Source of the DNA: Prochlorococcus sp. AG-402-N10
GTDB lineage: Bacteria; Cyanobacteriota; Cyanobacteriia; PCC-6307; Cyanobiaceae
NCBI GenBank assembly: GCA_003216465.1
Contig: QCIU01000005.1
Coordinates: forward strand, 1 to 64,000
Direction: 5' to 3'
DNA: 64,000 nucleotides
Part shown: piece by piece, positions 808 through 6,214 of the stretch
Layout: each line of letters begins with the position of its first letter
How positions within the stretch are numbered: position 1 is the stretch's first letter
Translations under genes and position numbers: made by a program
Notes under the pieces: model-generated
Told to the model about the DNA's origin: nothing
The model's input: only the letters and a program-made list of their open reading frames with translations
The model's database searches: none

Positions 808-1461
808 ATGTCTGACGATTTTACAAAAAAATCAAATCAATTAACTTTAGCCATCCATAGTACAGACGATTCGTTTGGATTTGGATTTAGAGAAAATAAA
901 AAAGATTTATCTGATACATTTTTTATTAAGAAGTTCGATAAAGATTTATGCAATAATTTGGTAGTAGATTTTGCAAATTTTATTACAAAAGAAAATTTAA
1001 AAAAAATTGATAAAATATCTGTCAGTATAGGTCCAGCAAATTTTAATGCATCAAGACAAATAGTAGTATTAGCAAGAACTCTATCTCAGCAAATAAATTG
1101 TTCTTTAGAGAGCTTTAGTTCTTTTGAATTAATGGCAAAAAGAATAGCGGTTAAAAATAATATTTATTCAAACAAAAAGTCATTCTGGATTTTTAAACAA
1201 CTAAAAAGAAAAGGATATATTGCAGGCCAATATGAAATTTCCATTTCAAAAAAATTTAAAAAAGTTATAACTATCAAAGAAAAAATTATTCCGAAAATAT
1301 TTGAAGAATTATCCGATAGAGATTCTTCATATCAAGCTGAATATAATGATTTAGAAGATTTAAAAGAATTACTTAATTTATCTAATAATAATTCTCAAAC
1401 TTTTAATTTTAATTCATGGGAAAAAGTATTGCCGTTATATCCAATATCTCCAGTTAACTAA
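808..1461 (+). CDS. tsaB: TsaB-like protein (tRNA N6-threonylcarbamoyladenosine biosynthesis)
   Basis: This is a TsaB/YeaZ-type ASKHA-fold protein of 217 residues. TsaB works with TsaD and TsaE to put t6A on ANN-decoding tRNAs and is itself non-catalytic. The N-terminal LAIHSTDDS corresponds to the family's first strand-turn, and the ISVSIGPANFNASRQIVVLA segment (residues about 70-90) to the GPGSFTGLRIG signature. The match is divergent, as often in Prochlorococcus: GPANFNASR replaces GPGSFTGLR. The gene lies 6 bp after ycf34 and converges on plsC with a 4-bp gap, leaving no room for a conventional terminator. Confidence 0.72.
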   Translation: MSDDFTKKSNQLTLAIHSTDDSFGFGFRENKKDLSDTFFIKKFDKDLCNNLVVDFANFITKENLKKIDKISVSIGPANFNASRQIVVLARTLSQQINCSLESFSSFELMAKRIAVKNNIYSNKKSFWIFKQLKRKGYIAGQYEISISKKFKKVITIKEKIIPKIFEELSDRDSSYQAEYNDLEDLKELLNLSNNNSQTFNFNSWEKVLPLYPISPVN

Positions 1462-1465
1462 AACT

Positions 1466-2086
1466 TCACTCAAGCATATTATTTATAGTTTCCTGCAAAT
1501 TATGAGTTACTCTAATCAAATCCTCTTTTGATCCAGTTTTTGGGGGTTCAATAGTTTTTCCTACCCTTATAACAATTTTTGTAAAAAAAGGAATAAAAAA
1601 CCTTAATTTAAATAATCTATGTGAATTAATAATTGCAACTGGTAACAAAGATTTTTGATTTTTGAAAGCGAGAAGTGCTGCGCCTTGCTTTGGCTTGTTT
1701 ACACGACCATCAATTTGACGGGTACCGTCAATAAAAATACCAATACTATTATCATTTGATAATTTTTGACATGCAATTTTAATAGTCGATTTATCCACAA
1801 TACCCCTCCTAACAGGATAGGCACCACAAGCTTTTATTATAAAACCAAGTAAAGGGACCCTAAAAAGTTCTGCCTTTGCCATAAAAGATATATTTCGACC
1901 AACAGCATGACCTAATAAAGGAGGATCAAGTAGTGAGCCATGATTAGATACCAATATAAAAGAACCTTTTTGAGGGATATTTTCTCTCCCAATTAAATTT
2001 CCTCTAAATATCAATTTATAAATAGGAAAAATAATTACTTGACTTACTAATTGATAAATTAATTTTTGATATAAAAAACTTTTCAT
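1466..2086 (-). CDS. plsC: 1-acyl-sn-glycerol-3-phosphate acyltransferase (PlsC family)
   Basis: Transfers an acyl chain to lysophosphatidic acid to make phosphatidic acid at the membrane. The HX4D catalytic motif is NHGSLLD (His49, Asp54). The second acyltransferase motif reads FIDGTRQ (residues 118-124), where most PlsC proteins have FPEGTR, so Asp replaces the usual Glu. A hydrophobic N-terminal stretch (about residues 9-27) suits membrane attachment. At 206 residues it has the usual short cyanobacterial length. It is last in the plsX-fabH-fabD-plsC run, 4 bp after fabD. Confidence 0.85.
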   Translation of the reverse strand: MKSFLYQKLIYQLVSQVIIFPIYKLIFRGNLIGRENIPQKGSFILVSNHGSLLDPPLLGHAVGRNISFMAKAELFRVPLLGFIIKACGAYPVRRGIVDKSTIKIACQKLSNDNSIGIFIDGTRQIDGRVNKPKQGAALLAFKNQKSLLPVAIINSHRLFKLRFFIPFFTKIVIRVGKTIEPPKTGSKEDLIRVTHNLQETINNMLE

Positions 2087-2090
2087 AAAA

Positions 2091-2987
2091 TCAGTATTTA
2101 ATTTGATCTGCAGAAGAAACTTGAGAAATTTTGATATCCTTCAAATGCCTTTTCCCTAAACCACCTAAGACATTTGAAGGGCCAATTTCTACCATATGGA
2201 GAATACTATTTTTTGACATTAAATCCATAGTTTCACGCCATCTAACACCATTACACATTTGACTTTTTAACCTAAACTTAAGCTCTTTAGGGTCATTACA
2301 TAGTGTTGGATTAGAGTTACTTATAACTGGTAATGAAGGTTGATTAAATTCAAGAGTGTCTAAATATTTTGTGAATTGAAGTGATGGTTCTTTCATAAAT
2401 GGCGAATGAAAAGCACCCGAAACATTTAATTTAAGGAATCTTTTTGCCGTGATTCGTTTTGAAATATCATCTAAAGCTTTTTCGCTTCCTGATAAAACAA
2501 CTTGAGAAGAACTATTGTCGTTTGCTATTACAAGATCATCAATCTCCTTAACCAATAAATCTAATTGATTTCTATCAAAACCAATTAATGCTGCCATAGA
2601 TCCCTTTGCGGCATCCGACATCAATGCAGATCTAACCTTTATGAGTGATACACAATCTTTAAAAGATAAAACATCGGCACAATATAAAGCCGTAATTTCA
2701 CCTAAACTATGCCCAGCAATACAGGTTGGTTTAAAACCATTTTCTTTTAAACAATCTAATAAGACTGATTCGACCAAAAAAAGACAAATTTGCGTGTTCT
2801 TTGTATTATTTAAATCATCAGTTGAATTTTTTATATCAGAACTTTGTTCACAAATTGCGACTAAATTCTTCTCGAAAATTTCAGATGCATAATCAAACCT
2901 ATTTTTTGCATTTGGCAAATTTATAATTTTATTTGCCATTCCTATTTTTTGCGAGCCCTGACCAGGGAATACCCAAGCAACTGTCAT
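2091..2987 (-). CDS. fabD: Malonyl-CoA:ACP transacylase FabD
   Basis: Loads malonyl groups onto acyl carrier protein for fatty acid elongation. The protein (298 residues) starts with the GQGSQ motif (9-13), has the active-site serine in GHSLGE (Ser94) and the catalytic histidine in GAFHSPFM (His194). The ATG at 2987 gives MTVAWVFPGQGSQ, the standard family start. It sits 18 bp after fabH and 4 bp before plsC on the same strand, so it belongs to the lipid-initiation operon. Confidence 0.95.
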   Translation of the reverse strand: MTVAWVFPGQGSQKIGMANKIINLPNAKNRFDYASEIFEKNLVAICEQSSDIKNSTDDLNNTKNTQICLFLVESVLLDCLKENGFKPTCIAGHSLGEITALYCADVLSFKDCVSLIKVRSALMSDAAKGSMAALIGFDRNQLDLLVKEIDDLVIANDNSSSQVVLSGSEKALDDISKRITAKRFLKLNVSGAFHSPFMKEPSLQFTKYLDTLEFNQPSLPVISNSNPTLCNDPKELKFRLKSQMCNGVRWRETMDLMSKNSILHMVEIGPSNVLGGLGKRHLKDIKISQVSSADQIKY

Positions 2988-3005
2988 AATTTACCTTTTT
3001 TATTT

Positions 3006-4013
3006 TTAACCCCATCGAATCAGGGCTGCACCCCAACTTAACCCAGCACCAAAACCACTGGTGGCAATAATATCATTTTGTTTAATTTTCTTATTTCTTA
3101 CAGCCTCATCTAGCATTAAAGGAATTGTTGCAGCTGAAGTATTTCCATAGTTACTTAAATTACTGAGAATCTTTTTTGATGGAACATTCAATCTTTCTCC
3201 TACAGAATCTAATATTCTTTGATTTGCTTGATGTAATAAAAGCCAATTAATTTTCTCAGAATTAAAATTTGTTTTCTTGAATAAATTATCAATAATTAAT
3301 GGTACTTCTCTTACTGCAAATTTATATACTTCTTGTCCATTCATCTCAATTGAAGAAAACCCTCCACTTGAATACTTAATATTATCCACAATTAGATCTT
3401 GATTCTTGTGAGAGGGGAGATTTAAGAAGGAGCCTCTTTGACCATCAGTCCTCATACTAAAGCCAATTAAATTATCTGATTCGTTAATTGCTTCTATTGC
3501 TATTGCACCTGCTCCATCTCCGAATAAGATACAACTTCGTCTATCGTTCCAATCTACATAACTTGAAAGTTGATCAGAACCAATTACTATAGCCCTCTTA
3601 TAACTTCCTGCTTTCAAAAATTGGGTAGCTGTAATTGCAGCAAATAAAAAACCACTACAAGCAGCTGTTAAATCAAAAGCAACAGCATTATTGGCGCCTA
3701 ATTTTGATTGTATTTCAGGCGCAGAACCAAATAAATCATTTGGAGTTGAAGTGGCTAATATTATGAGATCAATAGTTTGAATATCCCAATTAGCCATCTC
3801 AATTGCTGCCAATGCTGCTTTATGACCCATCTCACTAACATTTTCTAATAATCCAGATATTCTTCTTTGAGAAATACCTGTTCTTGATTTTATCCATTCA
3901 TCACTAGTATCTACCTTCTTACTAATTTCCTGATTTGTCAGGATTTGATTTGGTACATAACTTCCACTACCTTTAAATGAGACTCCAATTTGATTTAAAT
4001 TTATTCCTTCCAA
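3006..4013 (-). CDS. fabH: 3-oxoacyl-[ACP] synthase III (KAS III) FabH
   Basis: Condenses acetyl-CoA with malonyl-ACP to start fatty acid synthesis. The catalytic triad can be read as Cys119 in TAACSGF, His261 in LLHQANQR and Asn291 in YGNTSAA. At 335 residues it is full length. The reading frame opens with a TTG at 4013 (Met-Glu-Gly-Ile-Asn); no ATG fits better, and the homologous N-terminus starts at about this place. The 53-bp gap to plsX is the largest within the run and could hold an internal promoter. Confidence 0.94.
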   Translation of the reverse strand: MEGINLNQIGVSFKGSGSYVPNQILTNQEISKKVDTSDEWIKSRTGISQRRISGLLENVSEMGHKAALAAIEMANWDIQTIDLIILATSTPNDLFGSAPEIQSKLGANNAVAFDLTAACSGFLFAAITATQFLKAGSYKRAIVIGSDQLSSYVDWNDRRSCILFGDGAGAIAIEAINESDNLIGFSMRTDGQRGSFLNLPSHKNQDLIVDNIKYSSGGFSSIEMNGQEVYKFAVREVPLIIDNLFKKTNFNSEKINWLLLHQANQRILDSVGERLNVPSKKILSNLSNYGNTSAATIPLMLDEAVRNKKIKQNDIIATSGFGAGLSWGAALIRWG

Positions 4014-4066
4014 AAGAGTTATCTAATTACTTATATAAGTCAAACATAAATCTGACAAAATATGTT

Positions 4067-5467
4067 TTAAGAATTTAAAACTTGAAGCTTTTGAAGTTGA
4101 TTTAAATTTTTCATGACATTATGATTTACGGCAGAATGAGCTAAACGAAGAGCACTTACTACAGATAGAGACTTACTACTTCCATGCCCAATTACGCAGA
4201 TACCATTCACTCCAAGTAATAATGCACCTCCATGTTCTGCATGATCTAACCTTTTCTTAATTCTTAGTAAATTACTTTTTAAAAAAGCAGAACCAACCTT
4301 GCCCCTTCTTCCTCTTGGCAGTTCAGATCTTAAAATATCTAATAGTACCCCGCCAACTGACTCAAGAAATTTAAGTAGTATATTTCCTGTAAATCCGTCA
4401 CAAACAACTACATCAAAATCGCCAGATAAAACATCCCTTCCTTCACAATTACCTCCAAAATCAAAACTTTTTTCATTGGATAATAATTCAAATGTTTTTA
4501 CAGATAAGTCATTCCCTTTACATTCTTCTTCTCCAATATTTAATAAACCAATACGTGGTTTTTCTATTTGTAAAACATCTTTGGCATAAACATTACCAAG
4601 AAGGGCAAATTGATGAAGATAGGATGGCTTACAATCAGTGTTAGCTCCAACATCTAAAACTAATACAGGTCTAGTTTGATCTCTTGTAGGAAATAATGCT
4701 CCTATTGCAGGACGTTCGATACCTTTCAATCTACCTATCCTAAATATTGCAGAGGCCATAAGAGCTCCTGAATTACCTGCCGAATAAACAGCTTTTGCCT
4801 TATTAGTTTTGACTAAATCCATTGCAATATTTATACTTGCATCTTTTCTTTTTCTTACTGATGTTGCTTCTTCGTTCATCCCTATGGGATCTCCACTATC
4901 TATCAATTCAAGACGATTATTATCAATTTCTCTTTCTAGTAAATCTATTAAACCAACTTTTTCTGCTTCATATCTAACTCTTTCAATTCTCCCTACAAAC
5001 TTTATATTTATTGGAAATCTACTAATAGCATCTAGACAACCCTCTAAAATGGGAACTGGTGCATAATCTCCTCCCATACCATCAACTGCAATCCAAATCC
5101 TCTCAGAATTTAATACATCTTCTTTAAGTATCATATTATCATTGTTTTGCAACCTTTTTAAAGGGTCAAAAACTAGTGGCTGCAATGTATTCTTTGCAAT
5201 TGAACTAGCATTTGAAACTACACTGCTAGCAGTGTTTACAACTGATTCAGCACTAGATACTACATTCCCCGCTACATTGCCTGCCACATTACTTGCAGTA
5301 CTGACAACAGACCCTGCCCCAGAAACTACATTTCCCGCTACATTACTTGCAGTCACTGCAGAATTAGCCGCAGTATCAACTATTGTAGTCACAGCGGAAT
5401 TTCTTTTATACCAAATAACCAATCTTCTTATTGCTCTAGACTTTTTATTAGAAGAATCTTTTTCCAT
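4067..5467 (-). CDS. plsX: Phosphate acyltransferase PlsX with a long repeat-rich N-terminal extension
   Basis: Converts acyl-ACP to acyl-phosphate, the first committed step of glycerolipid synthesis in most bacteria. The catalytic core begins at about residue 124 with IWIAVDGMGGDYAP and continues to the C-terminus with typical segments (NSGALMAS, LDVGANTDCKP, VVCDGFTGNILLK, GHGSS). The protein has 466 residues; the family usually has about 330-350. The extra N-terminal segment holds a basic patch (RAIRRLVIWYKR, 11-22) and then a low-complexity Ala/Ser/Val/Asn/Gly stretch (about 27-91) with repeated AGNVVS and SVVSTAS units that looks like an amphipathic helix. The ATG at 5467 abuts the rpaB stop. 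A shorter version could start at Met112. Confidence 0.92.
   Translation of the reverse strand: MEKDSSNKKSRAIRRLVIWYKRNSAVTTIVDTAANSAVTASNVAGNVVSGAGSVVSTASNVAGNVAGNVVSSAESVVNTASSVVSNASSIAKNTLQPLVFDPLKRLQNNDNMILKEDVLNSERIWIAVDGMGGDYAPVPILEGCLDAISRFPINIKFVGRIERVRYEAEKVGLIDLLEREIDNNRLELIDSGDPIGMNEEATSVRKRKDASINIAMDLVKTNKAKAVYSAGNSGALMASAIFRIGRLKGIERPAIGALFPTRDQTRPVLVLDVGANTDCKPSYLHQFALLGNVYAKDVLQIEKPRIGLLNIGEEECKGNDLSVKTFELLSNEKSFDFGGNCEGRDVLSGDFDVVVCDGFTGNILLKFLESVGGVLLDILRSELPRGRRGKVGSAFLKSNLLRIKKRLDHAEHGGALLLGVNGICVIGHGSSKSLSVVSALRLAHSAVNHNVMKNLNQLQKLQVLNS
5197..5389 (-). repeat. Imperfect repeats coding for the PlsX N-terminal Val/Ala/Ser/Asn-rich segment
   Basis: This stretch of plsX encodes roughly residues 27-91. 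Units such as SNVAGNVVSGAGSVVSTAS recur with small changes, and the DNA shows matching repeats of gctac-att type codon runs. The spacing of small and beta-branched residues recalls the 11-residue lipid-binding repeats of synuclein or perilipin proteins. That comparison is an inference from residue pattern, not from alignment. Confidence 0.6.
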
Positions 5468-6214
5468 CTATTTACCATCGAAGGGAGATATATCGACTAT
5501 TCTCTGAAACAAATATCCTGTTCCTCTTGCAGTAAGAATTAATTCAGGATTTGCAGGGTCAGCCTCCAATTTTGATCTTAATCTCGATATATGAACATCC
5601 ACTACTCTTGTATCTACATGTCTTTCAGGAGTATAACCCCAAACTTCTTTCAAAATCTCTCCTCGACTAAATGGTTCTCCTGATCTACTTACTAAAAGTT
5701 CCAAAAGGCTAAATTCCATTCCTGTTAATCTGATTCGTTCATCACTTTTAAAAACCTGCCTTCGATTTGTATCGATTTTTATATCCGTAACCAAAATTAA
5801 ACCAGAATTTGGCATTCCAGGAATTTGTTCTTTATCAATTCTTCTTAAAACACATCTAATCCTAGCTTCTAATTCTTTTGGACTAAATGGTTTTACAACA
5901 TAATCATCAGCTCCTAATTCTAGTCCTGTAATCCTGTCCGCAACATCTCCTAAAGCAGTTAACATTACAATAGGTACGTCAGAATCCTTTCTTAATTCTT
6001 GACAAACTCCATACCCATCTAATTTTGGCATCATTACATCAAGGACTACTAAATCGGGATCATAATCTTTGAATAATTTTAATGCTTCTTTACCATCACA
6101 AGCAGTTACAACTTTGTAACCAATCATTGAGAGACGAGTCTCGAGAATTCTTCTAATGCTTGCCTCGTCATCTGCGACTAGGATTGTTTCTTTTGTTTGA
6201 CTAGATACAGCCAT
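5468..6214 (-). CDS. rpaB: OmpR-family response regulator RpaB (Ycf27)
   Basis: RpaB is an essential cyanobacterial regulator of high-light and photosystem genes that binds HLR1 promoter elements. It has a receiver domain (residues about 11-125) with phospho-acceptor Asp59 in LDVMMPKLDGYG, Thr86 and Lys108, then a winged-helix DNA-binding domain ending near GTGYLF. The receiver is nearly the textbook RpaB sequence (GADDYVVKPFSPKELEARIR), which separates it from RpaA. The stop codon directly abuts the plsX start with no gap, so the regulator and the lipid genes probably share an mRNA. The partner kinase (Hik33/NblS) is not in the window. Confidence 0.95.
   Translation of the reverse strand: MAVSSQTKETILVADDEASIRRILETRLSMIGYKVVTACDGKEALKLFKDYDPDLVVLDVMMPKLDGYGVCQELRKDSDVPIVMLTALGDVADRITGLELGADDYVVKPFSPKELEARIRCVLRRIDKEQIPGMPNSGLILVTDIKIDTNRRQVFKSDERIRLTGMEFSLLELLVSRSGEPFSRGEILKEVWGYTPERHVDTRVVDVHISRLRSKLEADPANPELILTARGTGYLFQRIVDISPFDGK

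Follow-up and report, generated by a model that had tools for sequence, protein, structure and literature searches.

The window, that is, the whole stretch of 64,000 nucleotides that was analysed, carries a reverse-strand gene cluster at 1466-6214 that comprises rpaB, plsX, fabH, and genes with Acyl_transf_1 (FabD-like) and Acyltransferase (PlsC-like) domains. The upstream neighbour of plsX scored as RpaB, and fabH is the downstream neighbour. The rpaB stop codon TAG (5468-5470) abuts the plsX start ATG at 5467 (TAG ATG), an arrangement that suggests translational coupling of a response regulator to lipid synthesis. An ORF of 217 aa at 808-1461 (+) adjoins the cluster and gave no Pfam match at E ≤ 0.001.

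The PlsX protein and its N-terminal arm

The plsX product was assigned by its domain to the PlsX acyl-ACP:phosphate acyltransferases (PF02504, 339.3 bits; TIGR00182, 358.6 bits; the domain is complete and over the cut-off), and its activity is predicted to be acyl-phosphate synthesis. PlsY is encoded in the same genome. PF02504 covers residues 126-453 only, in keeping with a sequence-only reading of this DNA in which about 120 residues were said to precede the PlsX core. The interval given there for the extension (5197-5467) holds residues 1-90 only; the full extension, referred to here as the arm, reaches to about 5108 and comprises residues 1-120 of the 466-residue PlsX. The order from the N-terminus is M1, repeat, M2, linker, and core, and the features are as follows.

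4067..5467, reverse strand: plsX gene, an ORF of 466 aa.
5372..5440, reverse strand: M1, putative anchor, cationic and aromatic, residues 10-32, SRAIRRLVIWYKRNSAVTTIVDT; almost unchanged across the family, dN/dS 0.052.
5186..5371, reverse strand: V/A/S/N/G amphipathic repeat, residues 33-94; periodicity of 100 degrees per residue, length differing among relatives.
5147..5185, reverse strand: M2, residues 95-107, LQPLVFDPLKRLQ; nearly invariant and the most constrained segment, dN/dS 0.008.
5108..5146, reverse strand: linker from M2 to the core, residues 108-120; fast-evolving, dN/dS 0.365.
4070..5107, reverse strand: PlsX catalytic core, residues 121-466, with PF02504 at residues 126-453.
4292..4324, reverse strand: hairpin tip ELPRGRRGKVG, residues 382-392; ungapped alignment to Bacillus subtilis PlsX.
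4307-4309, reverse strand: Arg387 codon, aligning without gaps to the membrane-docking Leu254 of B. subtilis PlsX.

In single letters, the cationic aromatic segment M1 is RAIRRLVIWYKRN... The basic patch and the V/A/S/N/G repeat described earlier are both present, and the 71-residue spacer between M1 and M2 contains V16 S15 A14 N9 T7 G5 and three charged residues.

The protein also belongs to the NCBIfam model NF010419 (PRK13845, 'putative glycerol-3-phosphate acyltransferase PlsX'), a PlsX equivalog model of 440 positions, which matched with 871.4 bits against a cut-off of 729. Its N-terminal part matched the extension given alone (E = 2.5e-38), and thus an annotated family model already takes in the extension; its one-line description is silent on it. 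With the arm as query, Pfam matches were far below the cut-off (best E 0.45) and NCBIfam returned only PRK13845 and one chance match, so that no known domain was found in these two collections. A second arm copy was not found in the same genome, where plsX was the sole match.

Distribution, translation, and selection of the arm

The arm is typical of the family to which the window belongs (Prochlorococcus and relatives) and was present in most parsed genomes of that family. In a search of 60 relatives, same-genus matches ran through the extension, and other families matched the core only. A search of 400 family genomes gave matches in 366. M1 was found in 253 of 274 parsed PlsX-core loci and was absent in 21 (20 other-family genomes and G529, a single genome represented by two loci, L196 and L336). 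The 253 M1 loci, 231 of them distinct in DNA, comprised 174 assigned by code to f1, the family of the window (35 genera), and 79 named Prochlorococcus or Synechococcaceae; 22 pairs did not differ in the first 900 bases counted from M1, including L001 and L195, which are both the window's own gene. The 80 loci named by NCBI (77 Prochlorococcus and three 'uncultured Synechococcaceae') included several identical in DNA to loci of genus g1, that of the window, which is accordingly most likely Prochlorococcus in NCBI naming; the family is Cyanobiaceae in GTDB. Neither M1 nor an arm was found in 50 other-family genomes (20 examined by pattern and 30, G529 among them, by reading N-termini), and most of the PlsX in these families have a start codon a few residues ahead of the core. 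The earlier statement that the family normally lacks the extension therefore stands for the other cyanobacterial families examined and fails for the window's own lineage.

An arm profile was also searched against 388 genomes of the class, of which 214 matched at E ≤ 0.01. Among the matches listed, non-family ones began at profile position 119 or later (at least 119, the core edge), except in four genomes. The match in G529 covered positions 99-152 across two stops (the DNA shows no arm), those in G042, the N-terminus of which was read, and G606 covered 109/110-152 across stops, and G504 gave a separate repeat-like match of 40 residues at positions 54-93.

The family loci were drawn from score-ranked listings, after which lower-scoring genera and truncated hits were examined on purpose; it was in this deliberate sample, where 21 of 30 loci reached the N-terminus and nine lacked it, that repeat-less arm forms were found. 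In genera g47, g55, and g67 (12 loci; L277-L287 and L298), PlsX carries M1 without the repeat, M2 is not recognisable, and the protein mostly starts MAEP.SL.G; this is possibly a minimal or reduced arm form. In genus g32 (eight loci, L288-L295), a degenerate and very basic arm (RRRAIRRIRRIRRL in most, also given as RRRAIRRIRRIRRLSRQ in most) stands in place of M1, with neither repeat nor M2, and is perhaps a second way to build a cationic anchor. The single g48 locus carries an arm whose repeat is short. In a core tree made by a quick method (106 rows), the M1-only (12 rows) and basic-arm (eight rows) sequences each fell on one side of a starred branch. The support for the repeat group was 47 and long branches meet, leaving the tree compatible with either a repeat gained after M1 or one lost in those lineages.

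Selection was assessed by dN/dS on 800 same-length pairs taken among 127 loci, the spacers of which have 71 or 75 residues, with identical DNA counted once. M1 had 0.052, the repeat 0.088, M2 0.008, the core 0.061, and the linker 0.365; M1, repeat, and M2 are thus under about the same constraint as the enzyme core. For loci with these spacers, the contrast argues strongly for an arm that is translated, almost certainly so, and selected, with the linker a loose connector. The sequence-only reading had named relatives that start at about Met112 with no extension as a finding fatal to its proposal; this was contradicted, Met occurring at that position in only three of the 127 loci. An internal start at Met112 was rejected on the same count, two of the three loci (L001 and L195) being the window's own gene.

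An in-frame ATG, GTG, or TTG lies upstream of M1 in all 251 loci that have both motifs. In 106 of these 251 family loci the upstream choice is limited to GTG or TTG, which leaves the true start codons of these 106 uncertain. In GC-rich family loci (e.g., L083, L088, and L092), the frame is open and alike upstream of M1 (CSSASS.PLPPKD..). The match of L025 (G034) contained one TAA; its open frame has 464 codons, and the TAA is thus near the C-terminus. The C-terminal part of the L148 ORF is unlike all others, perhaps through a frameshift or sequencing error.

Helical periodicity, spacer lengths, and resemblance to known helices

In the window spacer, hydrophobicity has its spectral peak at 100 degrees per residue, with a power that none of 5,000 shuffles reached, which agrees with the amphipathic helix pattern proposed from the sequence. 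Averaged over 194 unique spacers, the hydrophobic power spectrum peaked at 100 degrees with a value of 10.4 (shuffle mean 1.02; maximum of 200 shuffled sets 1.36). All 36 genus-label representatives beat their shuffles (p < 0.05) with peaks at 99-101 degrees, Prochlorococcus being counted under more than one label. The 94 long spacers (66-100 aa; 89 of them from Prochlorococcus) peaked at 99.6 degrees, with a power of 12.75 at 100 degrees, 9.97 at 98.2 degrees (11/3), and 1.76 at 102.9 degrees (heptad). The shorter classes peaked at 100.2 and 100.8 degrees with the angles less well separated: the power at 102.9 versus 100 degrees was 5.58 versus 9.57 for 33 middle spacers and 6.3 versus 7.56 for 67 short ones. 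Compared across cyanobacteria, as the sequence-only reading had proposed, the PlsX N-termini of the window's family carry a conserved, selected, and strongly periodic amphipathic helix pattern.

On the helix, A/V sectors are sharply apart from S/N/G/T sectors. Charged residues make up 3.6% of the spacers and F/W/Y 0.1%, and the spacers have the sequence features of a long amphipathic helix, with periodicity near 100 degrees and no proline breaks save two prolines in all 194. As the GC content of the core rises from 0.34 to 0.72, Asn falls and Gly plus Ala rises; the whole-length moment was kept at 0.26 over this range (SD 0.025), with a moderate fall with GC (r = -0.53). The hydrophobic moment (muH), taken as the mean over 18-residue windows at 100 degrees on the Fauchere-Pliska scale, was 0.257 for the family mean and 0.283 for the window, and the hydrophobic fractions were 0.47 and 0.45, respectively. 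When the arm alone was modelled with AF2, the best of five models was a single helix over residues 5-119 (mean pLDDT 69.6), the other four scoring 49-58; full-length PlsX was modelled with low confidence (pLDDT 50.1, arm mostly below 50).

Spacer lengths were obtained from 251 of the 253 M1 loci, as L198 and L249 lacked a match to the M2 start; a further locus, L191, had been left out for want of a core. They took 23 distinct values between 24 and 93 aa. The phase coherence of these lengths at 100 degrees was R = 0.666, reached by none of 100,000 random sets and none of 20,000 random sums of 4 and 7, for lengths that are related by descent and in which slippage of an 18/5-periodic repeat would yield part of the signal. 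When angles between 60 and 180 degrees were scanned freely, the maximum fell at 99.5 degrees, and none of 3,000 random sets reached this maximum at any angle. Twenty-one of the 23 lengths lay within 75 degrees of the mean phase; those off phase were 40 (one sequence, 125 degrees) and 52 (two sequences, 115 degrees). Extrapolated along one straight helix, the faces of M1 and M2 keep constant offsets from that of the repeat, of about 92 degrees (R 0.90) and about 121 degrees (R 0.92), respectively; without kinks, M1, repeat, and M2 would thus not share a flat surface. Two prolines occur in M2.

The repeat had been called synuclein-like. Of this, the resemblance to alpha-synuclein and Plin4 in hydrophobic fraction and moment held, and the literal likeness in charge, periodicity, and homology did not. 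Those helices are likewise long and repetitive, with small hydrophobic residues and almost no aromatics. Their muH values, 0.257 for Plin4 and 0.30 for alpha-synuclein in Table 1 of PMC5889406, compare only roughly with those of the arm, as 11-mer helices were plotted there as 3-11 helices and the arm was taken at 100 degrees. Their charge is 15% and 24%, respectively, against 3.6% in the arm (PMC5889406). Their phase is 11/3, whereas the arm is somewhat nearer 18/5 (12.75 versus 9.97 in the long spacers). The KTKEGV motif of synuclein was not seen in the arm. In a PDB profile search, homology to alpha-synuclein was not detected, the best match being at chance level (E = 2.1). Eleven of the 15 rows up to E = 10 were alpha-synuclein (E 2.1-9.4), and the others were the PlsX core edge (E 0.017-0.1) and one viral chain (E 0.41). 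Judged on its residues, with no homology detected and no charged Lys/Glu polar face (charged fraction 0.036, 194 spacers), the arm is placed outside the alpha-synuclein family.

ALPS-type sensors have a polar face rich in Ser, Thr, and Gly, as in the arm, and use bulky Leu, Phe, and Trp. The hydrophobic face of the arm is Ala/Val instead, and its helix is longer. Charges are few in both, with a fraction of 0.05 given for the ALPS protein GMAP210 (PMC5889406) versus 0.036 in the arm. On these figures, the composition of the arm lies between the Plin4/synuclein type, with its small V/A face, and the uncharged packing-sensor helices. In CCT, the helix is C-terminal to the catalytic domain. CCT is a phospholipid-synthesis enzyme with a long amphipathic helix beside its catalytic domain (PMC10720463), and this helix is highly charged (0.49; PMC5889406) compared with the arm (0.036). 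By analogy, the closest working likenesses would be Plin4/synuclein for the hydrophobic face and ALPS for the uncharged polar face, and the closest architecture would be that of CCT, with the arm a member of none of these groups.

Proposed role of the arm and alternative explanations

The B. subtilis PlsX structure 6A1K has the same enzyme core (E = 1.4e-64) and is that of a known peripheral membrane enzyme; its aligned chain begins at the core, without an arm, and its Leu254 corresponds to Arg387 of the window protein. B. subtilis PlsX, a dimer, docks via a 9-residue amphipathic peptide at the hairpin tip, and the Leu254Ala substitution shifts it to the cytosol (PMC6702220). PlsX binds phosphatidylglycerol, and in cells it becomes cytosolic when the tip carries glutamates; the glutamate-tip protein of B. 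subtilis still bound phosphatidylglycerol in vitro, superficially (PMC10146087).

The Leu254-equivalent residue was R in 248 and Y in one of the 249 family loci with a readable tip. In the other families it was L/W/I/V/M in 41, T in two, and K in one of 44 read by pattern, and L, W, or I in six more read by eye; it was hydrophobic in 47 of 50 other-family genomes. No tip match was obtained for 34 family loci, most of them from stretches ending about 700 bases past the arm, and for seven other loci, which were read by eye. It is as if the arm took over docking from the hairpin tip. The M1-only relatives also carry Arg at this position, and because the tip change is common to the family and to all arm forms, the link between tip and arm is one correlated, family-wide event (n = 1), a correlation only. 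By analogy, the Arg-rich tip may itself bind anionic lipid.

We consider it probable, reading from the sequence features, that the arm is a membrane-surface tether for PlsX. The sequence-only reading had suggested such a tether or a response to membrane curvature, both of them conjectural. M1, which is net positive and contains L, V, I, W, and Y, would seed binding to anionic lipids of the thylakoid or plasma membrane; the weakly hydrophobic repeat would then fold on the membrane, probably only there, through many small contacts; M2 would end the helix; and the linker would free the dimer to pass acyl-phosphate on to PlsY, a membrane enzyme. Membrane affinity would be tuned by the length of the repeat, with register-keeping lengths mostly retained. 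We counted in favour of the tether the family-typical selected arm, its 100-degree helix and phased lengths, the moment kept across the range of core GC, the Arg at the tip together with the effect of Leu254Ala in B. subtilis, the single helix of the best arm-only AF2 model, and the presence of a PlsY gene. The cyanobacterium in which PlsX has been localised is presumably Synechocystis. PlsX of one cyanobacterium was mapped to thylakoid membranes (PMC6878006).

Counted against the tether was the low hydrophobic moment (0.26-0.29). Two Plin4 33-mers (66 aa) of similar strength remain cytosolic in HeLa cells (PMC5889406), and the repeat alone may therefore be too weak. Plin4 coats droplets stably without bulky hydrophobic residues (PMC8064757), so weak helices can hold a lipid surface when they are long. 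The repeat is also dispensable in some lineages, since g47, g55, and g67 have M1 only and g32 has the basic arm only. Further points against the tether are the offset faces of M1 and M2, the two off-phase spacer lengths, the low scores of the full-length AF2 model and of the other four arm models, the single-event nature of the tip change, and the lipid binding retained by the glutamate-tip protein of B. subtilis.

Few photosynthetic cells are as abundant as those of Prochlorococcus and its relatives, and a conserved helical arm on PlsX would offer a direct handle on the placing and pacing of their membrane-lipid synthesis. The phase-preferring lengths constitute a natural series in which the same enzyme carries one amphipathic helix, lengthened or shortened, and are useful for tests of length against affinity. 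More speculatively, and in our estimate unlikely, picocyanobacterial PlsX could be a bacterial counterpart of CCT, in which docking by the tip gave way to a long helix, uncharged and tunable in length, that senses lipid packing in the thylakoid or plasma membrane; the gain or loss of whole helical turns would then be the means by which a species adjusts how sensitive its membrane synthesis is. Among the papers listed in a literature search by titles and abstract starts, mostly outside subscription journals, none described such a PlsX arm or its periodicity, length variation, or role.

The likeliest alternative to a membrane tether, though we regard it as unlikely, is a helix for protein docking or oligomerisation, which would pack by its A/V face on another helix (a second PlsX arm, FabH, ACP, PlsY, or a thylakoid protein) in a rod-like scaffold. 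An Ala/Val face without aromatics suits tight helix packing, plsX adjoins fabH in a lipid-synthesis cluster, phase-locked lengths are likewise expected of a rod, and PlsX is dimeric (PMC6702220). The heptad power of the long, mainly Prochlorococcus spacers (1.76 versus 12.75 at 100 degrees), however, is unlike that of a canonical left-handed coiled coil, the short spacers being closer (6.3 versus 7.56), and uncharged helices rich in Ser, Gly, Asn, and Val are generally poor autonomous coiled coils. The canonical heptad coiled coil is weakened as a candidate, the long and middle spacers lacking a 102.9-degree periodicity and the short ones not deciding.

A sensor of the CCT kind, in which the arm would inhibit or activate catalysis according to lipid packing or charge and so provide feedback on phospholipid synthesis, we regard as improbable. 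It would share the architecture class of CCT, in which an enzyme of lipid synthesis bears an inducible amphipathic helix of some length (PMC10720463), the uncharged polar face is as in packing-defect sensors (PMC5889406), and arm length differs between species. Contact between the arm and the active site, however, would have to be supposed, the full-length AF2 model having the low confidence given above.

Compared with the membrane tether, a disordered and functionless product of low-complexity DNA slippage is very improbable. The repeat has short units in variable copy number, and many length steps equal unit sizes; on the other hand, the repeat has a dN/dS of 0.088 and its flanks one of 0.008-0.052, the periodicity is kept over genera of 34-72% core GC, and the arm occurs in 35 coded family genera. 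The repeat is weak at the DNA level: Tandem Repeats Finder reported only a short 12-base array, and a DNA repeat search gave one 65-nt direct repeat (75% identity, spacing 66). Least probable of all is a transmembrane helix or hairpin in which small residues follow a GxxxG-like pattern, for although GC-rich genera show VAGSVAGS patterns with a small residue every four positions, none of 194 extensions has a 19-residue window at a mean hydropathy of 1.6 (top genus value 1.58), and the polar face in Prochlorococcus is rich in Asn. An antisense ORF of 121 aa at 5142-5507 (+) spans the repeat and is probably a by-product of its composition.
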